The notes beneath the pieces are model-generated. The model was given only the letters and a program-made list of their open reading frames with translations. It did no database searches and was not told the DNA's origin. The translations under genes were made by a program, and so were the position numbers. From the NCBI GenBank assembly GCA_016873495.1, contig VGXC01000003.1, positions 1 to 64,000 of the forward strand: a DNA stretch of 64,000 bases, given 5' to 3'. Positions within the stretch are counted from its first letter, which is position 1. Each line of letters opens with the position of its first letter. This stretch comes from Nitrospira sp. (GTDB lineage Bacteria > Nitrospirota > Nitrospiria > Nitrospirales > Nitrospiraceae). This document shows positions 2,610-42,764 of the stretch, piece by piece.

Positions 2610-3107
2610 TCAAGGACGTGGAGGAAGGGACGTGCCGCCGAGAGATTCGAGATAGAGTGCGATCTTGTCCAGCGCAGCCGCGCTGAGCTTCTGACCATAC
2701 CAGGGCGGCATGGTCCGGTCCGGGTAGCCCGGCACCACGTAGACACCGGGATTGAGAATGGATTCGATCACGTATTCGTGGACGGACTTGGCCCGGCCCC
2801 GGTAGCCTGGGTCAGCCAGGCGCGTCTGCCCGGTTTCTCCGAGTACCAGCTTCGGCCCCACTCGCCCTTCCGCCCCGGGAATGCCCGGGATCATATGGCA
2901 GACCGGACATCCGGCTCTCACAAAGAGTTGGGGAAGCGGCTCCTCCCCCGTTACAAGCGGAACCATGGTCGGGGAGATGTGCGGGACAGGTACGGCCGCT
3001 TGCTTGGCGGGGCCGCTCGGACCCATCCAATACACGACCAGGGTCAGCGGGAGCAGGCCAAGGCCGACTTGAAAAAATCTCCGGGCAAGGCGTTCGCGAT
3101 CAGGCAA
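2610..3107 (-). CDS. Membrane-anchored monohaem cytochrome c
   Basis: Small class-I-like c-type cytochrome of 165 residues. An N-terminal hydrophobic stretch after two Arg (about 10-29) would act as signal anchor and send the protein to the periplasm. One haem site, CPVCH, lies at 67-71, and the likely axial Met is in TMPPWYG at about 133. The C-terminus ends in a helix typical of cytochrome c. It is convergent with pilU and lies just downstream of a small basic protein, so it may be co-transcribed with the genes at 3125-3942. The redox partner cannot be told from the sequence. Confidence 0.82.
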   Translation of the reverse strand: MPDRERLARRFFQVGLGLLPLTLVVYWMGPSGPAKQAAVPVPHISPTMVPLVTGEEPLPQLFVRAGCPVCHMIPGIPGAEGRVGPKLVLGETGQTRLADPGYRGRAKSVHEYVIESILNPGVYVVPGYPDRTMPPWYGQKLSAAALDKIALYLESLGGTSLPPRP

Positions 3108-3124
3108 GGAGGCCCCTGGCGAGC

Positions 3125-3313
3125 CTAGTAGAGGGGCGCCTGGGGGCCAGGCCTCATGCCGGCCAAGTCCGGATCAGGCTCGTCCGGGCTCCGTTCCACG
3201 ACGTCCTTGGACTTCTTCCGTTCAACCCGCCGGAGTTCTTTTTCTTTCCGCTTTTCAGCCTTGTCGCGCTCGCGCTGACGTTTTGCGGCTGTAACTTTAG
3301 GATTGGTTGGCAC
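3125..3313 (-). CDS. Small highly charged hypothetical protein
   Basis: A 62-residue protein made largely of Lys, Arg and Glu, with an N-terminal ~35-residue region likely to form one charged helix (many RER, KRKEKE and RRVERKK runs), followed by an acidic, Pro-rich tail. It has no Cys, no signal peptide and no recognised domain. An AGGAGGAGCC ribosome site precedes the ATG, which supports translation. It lies 17 bases upstream of the cytochrome c gene on the same strand. No function can be assigned. Confidence 0.5.
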   Translation of the reverse strand: MPTNPKVTAAKRQRERDKAEKRKEKELRRVERKKSKDVVERSPDEPDPDLAGMRPGPQAPLY

Positions 3314-3408
3314 GGCTCCTCCTCACTGTTCCATCGTGCACAGGGCCCATGCTCCCGCACGATCTTCGCATCCGGCCCACGCATGCCCCTGAAGCATGCA
3401 CCAGCATA

Positions 3409-3942
3409 TCACGTGGCCCACTTAATCGTACAGCCAATCGCATGCGTAATCGGTTCGGCCGGCGCTCGTTGCGCGAGCAGCGCATCCAGGGCATCCCGGA
3501 GATAGCGCCGCGTCACCGCCTCGGGCCGCTGCCAGTTATCGTCGATCTTGCCCGTGTAGCGGAGCCGACGATCCTGGTCGAACACGAAAAGCTGCGGCGT
3601 ATGCGTTGCCCCGTAGGCCCGCGCCACTTGCTGGGACCCATCGCGCAGGTAGGGAAAATTGAAGCCCCTGTCTTTCGCGCGGGCGATCATGTGCTCTAGA
3701 TTGTCCTCCGGATAGTGTACGTCGTCGTTCGAATTGATCGCCACCAACTGAACGCCCCGATTGCCATAGTCGCGCTGAATCCTTATCAAACGGTCCTCAT
3801 AAGCCTGGACATAGGGACAATGGTTGCAGGAGAAGATCACCGCCAGCACGGGCTTCCCGGCAAACTCCTCCAGGCCGTAGGTCTTCCCGTCCACGCCGGA
3901 AAGAGAGAAGGGTCGCGCCGACTCGCCGAGTTGCATAGCCAT
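3409..3942 (-). CDS. Thioredoxin-fold (AhpC/TSA-like) protein
   Basis: Cytoplasmic-looking 177-residue thioredoxin-fold protein. The redox motif is SCNHCPY with Cys39 and Cys42, followed by the long alpha helix (YEDRLIRIQRDYG) and the VAINSNDD strand found in the AhpC/TSA-like 'thioredoxin family protein' group. A cis-Pro is in THTPQLFVF. There is no signal peptide. It is the gene before the SUMF1-like protein on the same strand (27 bases between them), which hints at a shared transcript. The substrate is unknown. Confidence 0.8.
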   Translation of the reverse strand: MAMQLGESARPFSLSGVDGKTYGLEEFAGKPVLAVIFSCNHCPYVQAYEDRLIRIQRDYGNRGVQLVAINSNDDVHYPEDNLEHMIARAKDRGFNFPYLRDGSQQVARAYGATHTPQLFVFDQDRRLRYTGKIDDNWQRPEAVTRRYLRDALDALLAQRAPAEPITHAIGCTIKWAT

Positions 3943-3969
3943 GGTCAGACTGCCGAGGCCGAGACAGGC

Positions 3970-4797
3970 CTACGTGGGAAGATCCATCGCGCAACGCACC
4001 CCGATCGTGCGATCCTGAAACTCCGGTTCGGCGGAAATCCGCACAGTCGCCCGGATCCCCGTCGGCACGTCCGCCCAGGACCCGCCGCGTATCACCCGTT
4101 TCTCACCGGCGGCCGGGCCCGTCGGATTCCGGGCCGGGCTTTTCTGGTAGTACTCGCGGTCATACCAGTCGGCCACCCATTCCGCCGCGTTCCCGGCCAT
4201 ATGAAAGAGACCATAGGGGCTCTTGCCCCCTTCCTTGGTCCCGTGACGCACGCTCATCCCCTCAAGGCCGCTGGTCACCGGAACCAACGTGATCGCATCG
4301 CTCACCCAGACCCCGCGATTGTAATTCGCGATATCCACGAAGGGCTGCATGTGGCCCCAGGGATACCGGCGACCGTCCGTTCCCCTCGCCGCTTTCTCCC
4401 ATTCGGCTTCGGTCGGCAACCGCTTGCCCACCCACTTGCAGTAGGCCTCCGCATCGGGCCAAGTCAGACCGACCGCCGGCCTATTGCCGGCGGAAGTTAC
4501 CGCTTCATCATCCCACGTTGGAGGGGGCCCGCGCTTCGCGGACTCGAGAAACTTCGCATACAGGTTGATTGTCACCTCGTATTGATCGATCGCATAGCGT
4601 TTCAACCAGACTTTGTGTTCAGGACGCTCGTTCCCCGCCCCGTCGTTGGAGCCCATGAGAAATTCGCCTTCGGGAATCACCACCATCGGCGCCCCGTCTT
4701 TCCCGAGCGGCCCGGGTGGAGCCTCTCCCGCTCCTAAGGTCATGAGTCCGGTCAACATGACTCCGCCGACCAGGCTCAAAGTGCGCGTCAGTCCCAT
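3970..4797 (-). CDS. Exported SUMF1/formylglycine-generating-enzyme-like protein
   Basis: A 275-residue protein with a cleavable-looking signal (SLVGGVMLTGLMTLGAGEA) followed by one complete SUMF1 domain: PEGEFLMGSND, EVTINLYAKF, LPTEAEWEKAARG, YPWG, GNAAEWVADWY and VIRGGSWAD. The family includes true formylglycine-generating enzymes, but the C-terminal catalytic Cys region of those enzymes is replaced here by a stretch without Cys between RGGSW and the end. Cysteine-to-formylglycine conversion is therefore unlikely. It more probably acts as a periplasmic binding or structural protein. No sulfatase gene is nearby. Confidence 0.82.
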   Translation of the reverse strand: MGLTRTLSLVGGVMLTGLMTLGAGEAPPGPLGKDGAPMVVIPEGEFLMGSNDGAGNERPEHKVWLKRYAIDQYEVTINLYAKFLESAKRGPPPTWDDEAVTSAGNRPAVGLTWPDAEAYCKWVGKRLPTEAEWEKAARGTDGRRYPWGHMQPFVDIANYNRGVWVSDAITLVPVTSGLEGMSVRHGTKEGGKSPYGLFHMAGNAAEWVADWYDREYYQKSPARNPTGPAAGEKRVIRGGSWADVPTGIRATVRISAEPEFQDRTIGVRCAMDLPT

Positions 4798-10585: not shown

Positions 10586-10650
10586 ACCTAACGCCTGGCG
10601 ATCACCTGCGGGCGCCGAAGGCGACCGTCAGGTGCATCGCCTCGTTAGGC
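10586..10650 (-). other. Integron attC recombination site
   Basis: A 65-base imperfect palindrome with full attC architecture. Outer boxes fit RYYYAAC and GTTRRRY (ACCTAAC at 10586-10592, GTTAGGC at 10644-10650). Inner boxes are GGCGAT and CACCTG, which pair with ATCGCC and CAGGTG with one extrahelical base on one arm. A ~20-base variable loop closes the structure. In minus-strand reading the extra base lies in the L'' arm, so the site belongs to the minus-strand gene that ends 14 bases before it. Confidence 0.85.
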
Positions 10651-10663
10651 AGCCCATTATCAG

Positions 10664-11182
10664 TCACGGTTTGAGGGATTCCATGTGCTTTAAGGCAGCG
10701 CGGTTAGCTGCCCTGATGCGGTCTGAGCGCACTTTGGGATCACCGACCGAGGAGCTGGCAGCCCACTCTTCTTCGAGCCCAATCAGGATCATTTCCAAGC
10801 GTTGCGTCGTCACAGTGGCCTGAAAGGCTTTATCATAAGGCTTCCAGAGAATCACGGTAAGCAACGAGCTAGCGCTGATGCCTCCAAAAACAATTGGATA
10901 GGCGGTGCTTCCCGAACCAAGGCCCGCAACGACGGCCGCGACAGCCATGGCGACGAACAACGCGAACAGAGTTACCGTCATCGCGATCGTGAGGGTCCAC
11001 GTAGAGCGCAGACGGGAGTTCGTGGTGTCAAAAAGACTGCGGATGCGCGGTATCGATTCGGGCTCAGTTTCAAGGATAAAGCCTGCCTCGGTCGACACCG
11101 CACGCTTGTCTTTGGAGCTGAGCAGCTCGATGAGAAGCTTGGGCACCGGAGCAGCAAGCGTTGTGATGGTCACCGGATCCAT
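10664..11182 (-). CDS. Cassette-borne two-TM membrane protein
   Basis: A 172-residue gene-cassette protein. It has a soluble N-terminal ~60 residues, two adjacent transmembrane helices (about 64-90 and 95-112), and a cytoplasmic helical tail. The layout recalls small 2TM modules such as the TRADD-N-associated or SLATT-type domains predicted to be pore-forming effectors in conflict systems; this match is by overall pattern only. The gene sits between an integron core site (GTTAGGC at 11202-11208) and an attC site, with a good AGGTGA ribosome site. Base composition is less GC-rich than its neighbours, consistent with transfer. Confidence 0.7.
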   Translation of the reverse strand: MDPVTITTLAAPVPKLLIELLSSKDKRAVSTEAGFILETEPESIPRIRSLFDTTNSRLRSTWTLTIAMTVTLFALFVAMAVAAVVAGLGSGSTAYPIVFGGISASSLLTVILWKPYDKAFQATVTTQRLEMILIGLEEEWAASSSVGDPKVRSDRIRAANRAALKHMESLKP

Positions 11183-11201
11183 TGGCTCACCTGTATCGTC
11201 T

Positions 11202-11208
11202 GCCTAAC
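11202..11208 (-). other. Integron core site at the cassette 5' boundary
   Basis: Minus-strand GTTAGGC marks the recombination point before the cassette gene, whose ATG is 20 bases downstream. No second attC-like partner was found upstream of it, so it is either the relic attI site or the surviving right end of a lost attC. The bases between it and the integrase fragment (11209-11388) hold no gene. They do contain short palindromes such as GATCCGCA with TGCGGATC. Confidence 0.6.
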
Positions 11209-11388
11209 AATGATTAGATTGATCCGCATAATCTGCGGATCACCGGCTTCCGACCCGTACAAGACGCCGTTGATACGGTGGATACTACACGAATTATTTC
11301 TTCAGTCTCAACCACTTGCGTCGATTGGGCATTGTTATCGTGGCGTCTTATGCGGATCAGCATAAAATCTACTGTTTCTTTCTCCTTT

Positions 11389-11512
11389 TCAAAGCTCAGC
11401 AACTGGGCTTTGAACCCCCGTCGGTCCACGGTTGAGCATGTGGGTATAGAGCATGGTCGTCTTCAGGTCGCTATGCCCCAGGCAGCTCCTGGACCGTCCG
11501 AATATCATAGCT
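11389..11512 (-). pseudogene. intI: Integron integrase C-terminal remnant (frameshifted)
   Basis: Minus-strand translation gives SYDIRTVQEL, then a one-base insertion (an extra C near 11481), then LGHSDLKTT and MLYTHMLNRGPTGVQSPVAEL followed by TGA. This is the C-terminal ~40 residues of an integron-type tyrosine recombinase, including the conserved LLGH box and the catalytic Tyr in LYTH. The rest of the gene is missing: the fragment begins four bases after the rarA stop codon. The fragment points toward the cassette, the order seen in integrons with a reversed integrase. It cannot be active. Confidence 0.88.
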
Positions 11513-39829: not shown

Positions 39830-40564
39830 ATGAGTCAACGAGTGGCCGTGATCACCGGCGGAGCGATGGGCATCGGACGCGCCATCGCGATCGACCTGGC
39901 CGCGCAACAGTGGCGGGTGGCGATCTGTTACCGGGCCAGCGAACGGGAGGCGAATGAAACGGCGGCGGCCATCACGGAGCGAGGCGGCACCCCGCTCGCC
40001 ATCCGTTGCGATGTCTCCGATCCCAAGGCATGCCAGGCGTTAGTCCAACAGGTGGAACAGACCTGGGGGCAAATAGACGCGCTGATCCACTGCGCCGGCC
40101 CCTACCATCGCGTCAACCTGATGGAAGAAACGCCCGCGGGATGGGCGGAAATGTTCGAACACAACTTGCACCCGATTTTTTATCTGAGCCAGGCGGCCGC
40201 GCCGGGCATGAAAGCCCGCAAGTCAGGCCGGATCGTCACCTTCAGCATGGCCAACGCAGACCAGATGATCGCCCAGCCGGAGGTCACCGCCCATTACATC
40301 GCCAAAGCCGGCGTGCTGATCCTGACCAAAACCCTGGCCAAACTGCTCGCCCCGTACGGCATCACCGTCAATGCCGTCTCGCCGGGGTTCATCGATTCGG
40401 GCAGCGCCCCGCCGGGCGAACTGGCCGGCGTGGTCAAACGCATCCCGGCCGGCTACGTCGGCGAAGTGAAGGACACGGTGGCGGCGGTGAAGTTCCTGCT
40501 CTCCGACGAGGCCCGCTACATCACCGGAACCAACATCCATGTTTCGGGAGGATGGGGGATATAG
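39830..40564 (+). CDS. SDR-family oxidoreductase
   Basis: Short-chain dehydrogenase/reductase of 244 residues. The NAD(P) loop is TGGAMGIG at about 9-16, NNAG is replaced by HCAGPYHR, and the catalytic Tyr155-x3-Lys159 lies in HYIAKAG, with the VSPGFIDSG loop after it. AGGAGGAA precedes the ATG. The protein resembles 3-oxoacyl-ACP- and pteridine-reductase-like SDRs; the substrate cannot be told. It ends the plus-strand run before the convergent cassette region. Confidence 0.88.
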   Translation: MSQRVAVITGGAMGIGRAIAIDLAAQQWRVAICYRASEREANETAAAITERGGTPLAIRCDVSDPKACQALVQQVEQTWGQIDALIHCAGPYHRVNLMEETPAGWAEMFEHNLHPIFYLSQAAAPGMKARKSGRIVTFSMANADQMIAQPEVTAHYIAKAGVLILTKTLAKLLAPYGITVNAVSPGFIDSGSAPPGELAGVVKRIPAGYVGEVKDTVAAVKFLLSDEARYITGTNIHVSGGWGI

Positions 40565-40867: not shown

Positions 40868-40933
40868 TCACGCGCCACTGTTTTCGAAAAGGGCTTGTAA
40901 GAGCGGTTCGACTTCACCCTTTCCGCCCCCCAT
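40868..40933 (-). pseudogene. Possible 3' fragment of a Grx4-type glutaredoxin gene
   Basis: Minus-strand reading gives MGGGKGEVEPLLQALFENSGA and a stop. This aligns with the end of the intact grxD at 42382 (MEAKGEVEPLLKTAFGK), with eight identical residues in a row and similar bases around them. It starts only 20 bases from the attC site, where similarity ends. It looks like a relic of a second glutaredoxin gene cut by the cassette region. Chance similarity is possible given its length. The rest of the 40565-40952 gap shows no other gene. Confidence 0.4.
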
Positions 40934-40952
40934 CGCAGCGGTCTCGAATGCG

Positions 40953-40985
40953 GCCTAACGACCAAGCTCAGCGCTCTGGTTAGGC
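40953..40985 (-). other. Very short attC-like site
   Basis: GCCTAAC (40953-40959) and GTTAGGC (40979-40985) bound only 33 bases. On the minus strand CCA-g-AGC pairs with GCT-TGG inside, leaving one extrahelical G, an unpaired TCG spacer and a 5-base loop. This is a minimal or truncated attC. The stop codon of the minus-strand gene at 40980 lies in its R'' box, typical of gene cassettes. Confidence 0.65.
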
Positions 40986-41495
40986 CTTGTTTTCTGCACC
41001 GGCCTTCTTATCGGCTTCAAACTTTTTCTTAAGCTTTAAGGCTGTCTCTCTCGAAGGCGGTGTGTCTTCGTTCTCTTTGCACACCTCTTCGTATTCCTTC
41101 ATCACCAACTCAAATCGCTTTGCGAACTCTGCCACATCAAGCGTTTTATCCACATATGCTGCCTTCAGACATGCGAGTGCCCTGCTGATTCGATTGAACT
41201 TGTTTCCAAGCTGTCGGTGTCCACGTTCGGCTTTCTCGAAGCCATAGAAGGTCTGAATCCCAACAAGGAAGCTACTTGCTAAGGCCAACAGAGCACCAAT
41301 CCACTTCATTGCGTCAGGGACAATCTTGCCAAGGTCTGCGACCAATACCGAACCGACCACAATGTTAATGACGAGCGATGGCACGCCATACCGTATCCGT
41401 TGATTCTTGTCGCCTTCGGCTTCGACGTAGTGACAGGTTGCGACGAAGTCGCAATCACTCACTGTCGTATCAAGAAGTTCTAATGTCTTTTCCAT
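40980..41495 (-). CDS. Cassette-borne SLATT-like two-TM protein
   Basis: A 171-residue protein with two adjacent transmembrane helices (about 38-58 and 64-84), a GFEKAERGHRQLGNKFNRISRAL helix after them and a long charged C-terminal helix. The layout and the post-TM motif fit SLATT domains, which are predicted to form membrane pores in prokaryotic conflict systems triggered by nucleotide signals. No CD-NTase or SLOG partner is adjacent. It is carried by a gene cassette: the start codon is 11 bases after the core site at 41507-41513, and its stop lies in the next attC. Composition is AT-richer than the chromosome around it. Confidence 0.75.
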   Translation of the reverse strand: MEKTLELLDTTVSDCDFVATCHYVEAEGDKNQRIRYGVPSLVINIVVGSVLVADLGKIVPDAMKWIGALLALASSFLVGIQTFYGFEKAERGHRQLGNKFNRISRALACLKAAYVDKTLDVAEFAKRFELVMKEYEEVCKENEDTPPSRETALKLKKKFEADKKAGAENKA

Positions 41496-41506
41496 AAACT
41501 CACATG

Positions 41507-41593
41507 GCCTAACGTAGAGCTAACCGGCGCTGCGCGGCTTTATCGCGCAGCGTCCAGCGACCGAAGGGAGCGAGGTTGAGCGCCATGTTAGAG
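41507..41593 (-). other. Integron attC recombination site
   Basis: An 87-base attC between two minus-strand cassette genes. Minus-strand reading: R'' CTCTAAC (first base off consensus), L'' GCTcAACC with an extrahelical C, a ~50-base variable palindromic part (including GCTGCGCG with CGCGCAGC), L' GGTTAGC, and R' GTTAGGC at 41513-41507. The upstream gene's stop lies in R''. Confidence 0.88.
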
Positions 41594-41971
41594 CTTGCGC
41601 TCAATGTAACTAATGGACTCATCAAGTTCTGCATGAAGTCTATTTCGCTTGCCTTCTGGGCCGTAATCGACCCACGATTCCTTCAGTCCACGAAGGATGC
41701 GCAAAGTAACTGGGAAATACTCTTTGAAATTTCGCAGTTCAAAAATGACTGCGATCTGTCGATCCAAGCGCATCGGCTGGTTGGGGTCTTCGCGCTCGAC
41801 AAGCTGCTTAATCAACCTGTGATATGCGAGAAAGCGCCGTTCCTTTTGGTCGGCCTTCTTTATCGAAAAGTATGTGTAGGCTGACCATGCTAACGGAATG
41901 ATAACGAGGACGATGCTGAGCGCCCCGGCATTATCGTTTAGCCATTTCCAGATCTGCATCAAAGTTTCCAT
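41588..41971 (-). CDS. Cassette-borne single-TM hypothetical protein
   Basis: A 127-residue protein with one N-terminal transmembrane helix (about 17-37) and a cytoplasmic helical domain (YHRLIKQLV, IAVIFELRNFKEYFPVTLRIL). No family was recognised. Coding on the minus strand, not the overlapping plus-strand frame, is shown by the cassette logic: its ATG is 8 bases from the core site at 41979-41985 and its stop is inside the attC at 41588. No ribosome site is visible in the short leader. Confidence 0.7.
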   Translation of the reverse strand: METLMQIWKWLNDNAGALSIVLVIIPLAWSAYTYFSIKKADQKERRFLAYHRLIKQLVEREDPNQPMRLDRQIAVIFELRNFKEYFPVTLRILRGLKESWVDYGPEGKRNRLHAELDESISYIERKL

Positions 41972-41978
41972 AGATAGC

Positions 41979-41985
41979 TCTAACT
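41979..41985 (-). other. Cassette core site at the outer end of the second array
   Basis: Minus-strand GTTAGAG precedes the 127-residue gene and repeats the variant core of the attC at 41587-41593. No intact attC or attI could be drawn upstream, only a 9-bp inverted repeat (42005-42013 with 42091-42099). No integrase gene is near. Confidence 0.5.
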
Positions 41986-42192
41986 ATTGAGTATACTGAC
42001 CGGCATAGCACGCGTGGACAGGCGGCACACTGGCACGTGATTCTTGTGTAGATTCCATCACTTGTCAACCATCTCCACAGCGCGGGATCGGCGTGCTATA
42101 CAGATCGGCATAGTTCCATTATAGCTGCGAAGGGCTGAGTATCTGATGCAGCATATCCTCTGAACTTCCAGCTCCTCTTCCGCCACGGCCAT

Positions 42193-42381: not shown

Positions 42382-42705
42382 CTATTTGCCGAACGCAGTC
42401 TTCAGCAGCGGCTCGACCTCACCCTTGGCTTCCATCGGGTCCAGGATGTCCGTATCTCCATAGAACTGCCCGTTGATGAAGACCTTGGGCAGGGTCGGCC
42501 AGTTGGTCATCTTCGAGAGCGCCTCGCGCTTGGCCGGATTCTGAAGCACGTCCACCACTTCAAAGGGGAATCCGTACTTCTCGAAAAACTGCACGGTCTC
42601 CCTGGTGAAGCCGCACATGGGCATCTGCTTGGTGCCCTTGCCGTAGATCAGAATCTTGTGCTGTTTGATCTCCGCCTGAATCTCGTCGTCGATCGGATTA
42701 CCCAT
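42382..42705 (-). CDS. grxD: Grx4-family monothiol glutaredoxin
   Basis: Monothiol glutaredoxin of 107 residues involved in Fe-S cluster transfer and iron sensing. The motif is MPMCGFT, with the active Cys at about 31 and Thr where most members have Ser (CGFS). The glutathione-binding WPTLPKVFINGQFYGDTDIL stretch, given here as WPTLP and GDTDI, is intact. The start at 42705 follows GGAGGTGA. BolA lies 59 bases upstream on the same strand; Grx4 and BolA form a [2Fe-2S] heterodimer, so the two are likely partners. Confidence 0.92.
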   Translation of the reverse strand: MGNPIDDEIQAEIKQHKILIYGKGTKQMPMCGFTRETVQFFEKYGFPFEVVDVLQNPAKREALSKMTNWPTLPKVFINGQFYGDTDILDPMEAKGEVEPLLKTAFGK

Positions 42706-42764
42706 CGTCTCACCTCCGGCCTGGTTGTTTCGTCCTTCGCTGTTCACCATTCACTGTTCACGTT

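Follow-up and report, generated by a model that had tools for sequence, protein, structure and literature searches.

A stretch of 64,000 nt at the start of contig VGXC01000003.1 of a Nitrospira sp. genome (GCA_016873495.1), hereafter called the window, carries two minus-strand genes between a glutaredoxin gene (Grx) and a convergent short-chain dehydrogenase gene (SDR), and each of these two genes ends at a site resembling the attC recombination sites of integron cassettes. A preliminary description of the locus considered it to be a cluster of attC sites lacking an integrase gene (CALIN), whose cassettes an integrase working in trans had moved there, perhaps the one fossilised 30 kb away at 11389. 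The locus thus raises the question of how gene cassettes came to lie at a place that has no integrase gene: were they brought there from elsewhere, or are they what is left of an integron that once resided at this position?

The attC sites were evaluated with a covariance model built on an alignment of 11 attCs, drawn from this genome and its relatives at loci other than the one under test. Covariation of the R and L helices was confirmed in the training alignment, where 92.5% of cells are paired and the covariation score exceeded that of all 500 shuffles. The site at 41507-41594 was found with 37.0 bits (E = 1.6e-7 in 64 kb, model R1), in agreement with the attC initially proposed there, and the attC at 10586-10650 with 41.1 bits. 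Class 1 integron attCs (aadA2, dfrA12 and blaOXA-2) used as controls scored 28-62 bits in the same kind of test. The 33-nt site at 40953-40985, originally called attC-like, was also recovered by the model, but weakly: it scored 20.9 bits, corresponding to E values of 0.0033 in the window and 0.16 genome-wide. Both of its R boxes are whole, while the L boxes and the loop are mostly deleted; it is a truncated attC. In the rest of the window E values were near 1 or above, except for a match to this same site on the opposite strand. The inner part of the strong attC shares 89-94% identity over 47-56 nt with the attC of the plasmid-borne blaOXA-2 cassette, and 97% over 58 nt with an Azoarcus plasmid. 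Unlike this class 1 cassette, the locus described here has a different gene, a chromosomal site, no IntI1 and a different attI. No attC or attI match was found in Rfam at gathering scores. A plain R''-R' pattern scan of the genome was uninformative (33 places, against 60 in the reversed control); a scan of the window combining pattern and fold gave more matches in shuffled than in real sequence, which is why the covariance model was used instead.

The two sites delimit two cassettes (Table 1). A gene cassette consists of an ORF followed by an attC and is bounded by G/TTRRRY cores; the first cassette corresponds fully to this definition and the second does so with a truncated attC. In each, the cassette's own R' pairs with its own R'', over 9 bp in cassette 1 (GTTAGAGCT/AGCTCTAAC) and 8 bp in cassette 2 (GTTAGGCC/GGCCTAAC). 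As reported in the preliminary description, both genes start near a GTTRRR core, 14-18 nt after it, and their stop codons fall within R'' boxes. They are also AT-richer than their surroundings: their GC content is 0.48, that of the window as a whole 0.63, and no 500-nt segment of the window has a lower GC content than the one found here. ORF1 matched no known family, and searches of 171 other family genomes (at E<=1e-6) and of plasmids returned no relative. ORF2 scored 74.1 bits against the SLATT_4 profile NF033632, above the curated cut-off of 55, was below the cut-off for Pfam SLATT_4, and matched the PADLOC 2TM effector with E = 1.5e-6; no relative was detected at E<=1e-6 in the 171 other family genomes. 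SLATT proteins form a class predicted to act as membrane effectors of defence systems. In the same genome, a longer array preceded by a diverged attI at a contig end (locus L013, G000:C35, 1-4300) carries cassettes for an Mrr-type restriction enzyme, a DUF4062 protein and a toxin-antitoxin-like pair; on account of the first two, the cassette cargo leans towards defence.

Table 1. Features of the Grx-SDR interval and its flanks, in window coordinates
Feature	Position	Strand	Basis
Grx, flanking glutaredoxin gene	42382..42750	-	Pfam Glutaredoxin; synteny with relatives
intI remnant, last 22 codons and stop	42119..42187	-	Translation; DNA profile
attI, including last intI codons, promoter and crossover G/TTAGAGC	41980..42137	-	attI profile, 167.8 bits; position in relatives
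Candidate Pc: TTGACA (42063-42068), 17-nt spacer, AAGAAT (42040-42045)	42040..42068	-	Sequence
Cassette 1, 471 nt	41513..41983	-	G/TT boundaries of attI and attC of cassette 1; R'/R'' complementarity
ORF1, 127 aa, one predicted membrane helix	41588..41971	-	Family profile searches
attC of cassette 1	41507..41594	-	Covariance model R1; blaOXA-2 attC similarity
Cassette 2, 554 nt	40959..41512	-	G/TT boundaries of attC of cassette 1 and truncated distal attC; R'/R'' complementarity
ORF2, 171 aa, SLATT domain, two predicted membrane helices	40980..41495	-	NF033632 SLATT_4
Truncated attC of cassette 2, 33 nt	40953..40985	-	Covariance model; R boxes intact
Diverged copy of Grx 3' end, distal border of insert	40888..40935	-	20-nt core, 18/20 identical
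SDR, flanking short-chain dehydrogenase gene, convergent to Grx	39830..40564	+	Pfam

The locus is larger than first described, extending upstream over an attI and an intI remnant (41980-42187). Directly upstream of cassette 1 lies a conserved element of about 155 nt that ends at the first core. Because integrase-bearing relatives (G132, G105, G051 and G047) have a homologous element in the interval separating the IntI stop codon from the first cassette, we identified it as the attI; it is a GTTRRR-ending site before the first cassette, at the homologous position and spacing, with its crossover between 41984 and 41983. The preceding sequence translates as RGGRGAGSSEDMLHQILSPSQL followed by a stop codon, and the intact IntI of relative G132 ends with RGGKGVRSPADALVQGLSPSQL and a stop codon. 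A DNA profile of the intI end and attI aligned without a break into the window upstream of the attI (model positions 252-459). The intI stop and the crossover are separated by 135 nt, a distance shared to within a base by three relatives (G105, G047 and G038), and by 145 nt in G140. This stub was overlooked by a whole-domain IntI profile search and recovered by translation and the DNA profile. The intI remnant, attI and cassettes all point in one direction, which is the unusual, reverse type of orientation. Of 46 full-length attI copies, 36 retain the TTGACA hexamer of the candidate promoter and 33 show a -10-like hexamer 16-18 nt away, and the cassettes are probably transcribed from this attI-borne promoter. 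The attI also contains an imperfect palindrome twice (41992-42013 and 42091-42112, about 80 nt apart), with 22-nt arms that are 77% complementary and well conserved in the family; these paired palindromes are possibly binding sites of the integrase or of a regulator.

The presence of the locus's own attI with a promoter and of the last 22 intI codons upstream indicates a degraded integron rather than cassettes at a bare site. We thus consider, with a probability of roughly 0.88, that the locus is a small chromosomal integron remnant in reverse orientation, in which intI was deleted and the attI, promoter and two cassettes were kept. The ancestral state would have been an integron of the family found in Nitrospira and its relatives, with intI reading towards attI and the cassettes following on the same strand. 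Deletion would have reduced intI to its last 22 codons, leaving the attI, the promoter and two cassettes in place. As no intact intI is present, the locus is not filed as a complete integron. No complete integron integrase was found in the 89 contigs of this draft assembly (completeness 99.97%), where the best partial IntI, on contig C31, runs off the contig, whose end could hide one. The array would now be static because this assembly has no integrase, and cassette 2 would no longer be normally excisable because the distal attC lacks L boxes. A tyrosine-recombinase match on contig C25 was set aside by eye, as it has no integron-type C-terminus.

Dispersed orphan attI sites are a less expected part of the picture than a degraded integron with a retained attI. 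Of 175 family genomes, 66 have the attI element, a single genome carrying at most five copies. An exact 20-nt core of it was found in 11 stretches among 84,980 named genomes. Each of these stretches bears the label Nitrospira, Nitrospiraceae or Nitrospirae, and this attI family is known so far only from Nitrospira and close relatives. Among 77 distinct copies with upstream DNA, one is accompanied by a full integrase and about four by large broken fragments; the others have little or nothing, some contigs ending too close to tell. The sole attI beside a complete integrase (L112 in G132, 2944-4488) is interrupted by about 1.4 kb of inserted DNA with an apparent transposase gene. Integrases scoring over the family cut-off were detected in 18 of the 175 genomes, only six of which are among the 66 that bear the attI.

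We then compared the Grx-SDR interval among relatives. In other genera the gap between the two genes is 20, 28, 82 or 92 nt with nothing between them, which corresponds to an empty site, and in the window it is 1817 nt. In congener G170 the gap is 810 nt and contains a partial attI and a small zinc-ribbon-like ORF; in congener G171 it is 1018 nt and contains a putative DUF4160-DUF2442 pair, read by eye. G168, of another genus, has an attI at this position too, together with a gene for a membrane protein unlike that of the window locus. The block is therefore not conserved unchanged in all relatives; had it been, this would have spoken against the initial reading as mobile cassettes. With moderate support, the attI copies of G170 and G168 at this site belong to a different lineage from that of the window, and for that reason the history of the Grx site may include attI replacement and not only decay. 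At two unrelated loci (L028, 2180-2795; L132, 2200-2760) a putative DUF4160-DUF2442 pair lies beside extra copies of a host-gene 3' end (about 40-50 nt), and such a pair may be an independent mobile unit that uses gene ends as insertion sites.

The Grx 3' end is found a second time at the insert's distal border, which raises a different explanation, in which an integrase-free module made of the intI end, the attI and cassettes was moved as a unit by another mechanism targeting gene 3' ends, the copy being a target duplication. This copy occurs in the present genome (G000) and at the same place in G170 and G171, copies of another host-gene 3' end lie beside the array on contig C7, and the many dispersed attI copies, up to five per genome, would also be accounted for. 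However, the Grx copy in the window is diverged and scores hardly better than shuffled sequence, even though it is clear in G170, and no framing repeat above shuffles was found between the sequence upstream of attI and that beyond the array at C4 and C7. The upstream breakpoints in intI vary widely among attI copies, a pattern more in keeping with decay than with a unit whose ends are fixed. Recent multiplication of attI inside a genome was also tested and found no support: the nearest copy was a same-genome sister in only one of the 38 copies having such a sister, which argues against recent internal spreading. We regard transfer as a module as unlikely, although it deserves to be kept in mind.

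Apart from decay of a local integron, the cassettes might have been inserted at a secondary site by an integrase acting in trans, such as the one fossilised at 11.4 kb, without any local integron ever having been present. The lack of an intI gene here, the attC sites borne by the cassettes and the second intI relic 30 kb away agree with this proposal, whose notion of a bare site is contradicted by a complete attI and an intI end directly upstream at normal spacing. The 11.4-kb relic also fails as the source designated in the preliminary description. It is frame-shifted and adjoins its own cassette with the attC at 10586-10650; it is part of a separate, second decayed integron and is not needed as a source of cassettes. 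This first array of the window (10586-11510) comprises one cassette, with an ORF without known family (10664-11182), its attC, and the intI relic, and a diverged attI-like region with two paired palindromes lies between cassette and relic. Insertion at a secondary site is accordingly very improbable. It is hardly credible that the two genes belong to the ordinary chromosomal complement and simply lie next to chance palindromes: the 33-nt site alone would be weak (E = 0.16 across the genome), but the E value of the strong attC, its blaOXA-2 match, the attI, the intI remnant, the cassette boundaries and the absence from relatives all stand against it.

The degraded integron in the window is one of several such loci. 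Nine attC matches were found in this genome, at five loci: near 41 kb and 10.6 kb on C3, and on C4, C7 and C35. An attI of the window type is present at the 41-kb locus, C4 (84% identical) and C7 (71%), the latter two each before an attC-bearing cassette; C35 has a diverged attI, and the 10.6-kb locus the intI relic. At three loci, relatives share the flanks and an integrase-less attI, yet the genes behind it differ. The C7 locus and the C8 locus of G170 occupy the same place, with flanks about 88% identical on both sides. They have a common left junction, a hairpin ending in GGTCCCCGTTGC followed by at most 14 intI codons, from which it is most likely that their common ancestor had already lost the integrase. 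The cassette behind the attI differs between the two, and both arrays finish at the same host GTTACGC core. G014, of another genus, has the same upstream flank and attI, again with other genes behind, and the same pattern is seen in G169 and G171 at one further locus. Since the deletion of intI appears to predate the divergence of the species while the cassettes differ, we infer that cassettes at C7 were exchanged after loss of the local integrase, which implies action in trans. The idea of an integrase in trans in the preliminary description thus receives indirect support from C7, although not for the relic that it named. A longer ancestral array at C7 may instead have lost different cassettes in the two lineages, but precise loss of a cassette would need an integrase too. 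We tentatively propose, with more doubt than confidence, that in Nitrospiraceae orphan attI sites with their promoters may persist at many positions of the chromosome once their integrase is lost, as landing pads at which integrases in trans exchange cassettes, capture and expression being spread over several single-cassette sites instead of one long array.

CALINs were considered probably degraded integrons in the work on IntegronFinder 2.0, which found two of them in Ca. Nitrospira inopinata (PMC9024848). The term used in the preliminary description fits broadly, as attC-bearing cassettes are present with no adjacent integrase gene. The locus differs in keeping an attI, a candidate promoter and the intI end, which make it a degraded integron, and in having a single full-strength attC (37.0 bits) next to a truncated one (20.9 bits), where version 2 by default takes at least two attC sites. 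Counts of CALINs often treat them as attC clusters without asking about their origin, which here can be read from the attI and the intI stub. Treponema has a chromosomal integron in reverse orientation, with intI towards attI, and T. phagedenis is reported to have lost intI, leaving remnants (PMC3607928). Both transcription of intI towards attI, in the direction of the cassettes, and intI loss with remnants are common to the two cases; Treponema belongs to another phylum and has another attI sequence, while here there are many loci per genome and family, each keeping attI. No paper on the Nitrospira attI family was found in the literature searched, where only few CALINs are reported for this group of nitrifiers. 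The conserved attI family could serve as a sequence handle for integron loci overlooked by attC and integrase searches, and the shared loci with differing cassettes suggest that integrase-less sites can still exchange genes.

An attI located away from a working intI-attI platform is also found in the attI-ORF-delta-attI cassettes of class 1 and class 2 integrons (PMC12901181). The attI of the window differs from these in its full length and its position upstream of the cassettes. A closer likeness is seen in G137, where a TIR-like ORF has a full attI on one side and, on the other, an 18-nt attI stub (TATACTCAATAGTTGGGC) that takes the place of an attC (L090, G137:C59, 4878-5780). This contig carries four attI copies and a partial fifth within 6 kb, three of which are preceded by intI 3' ends.
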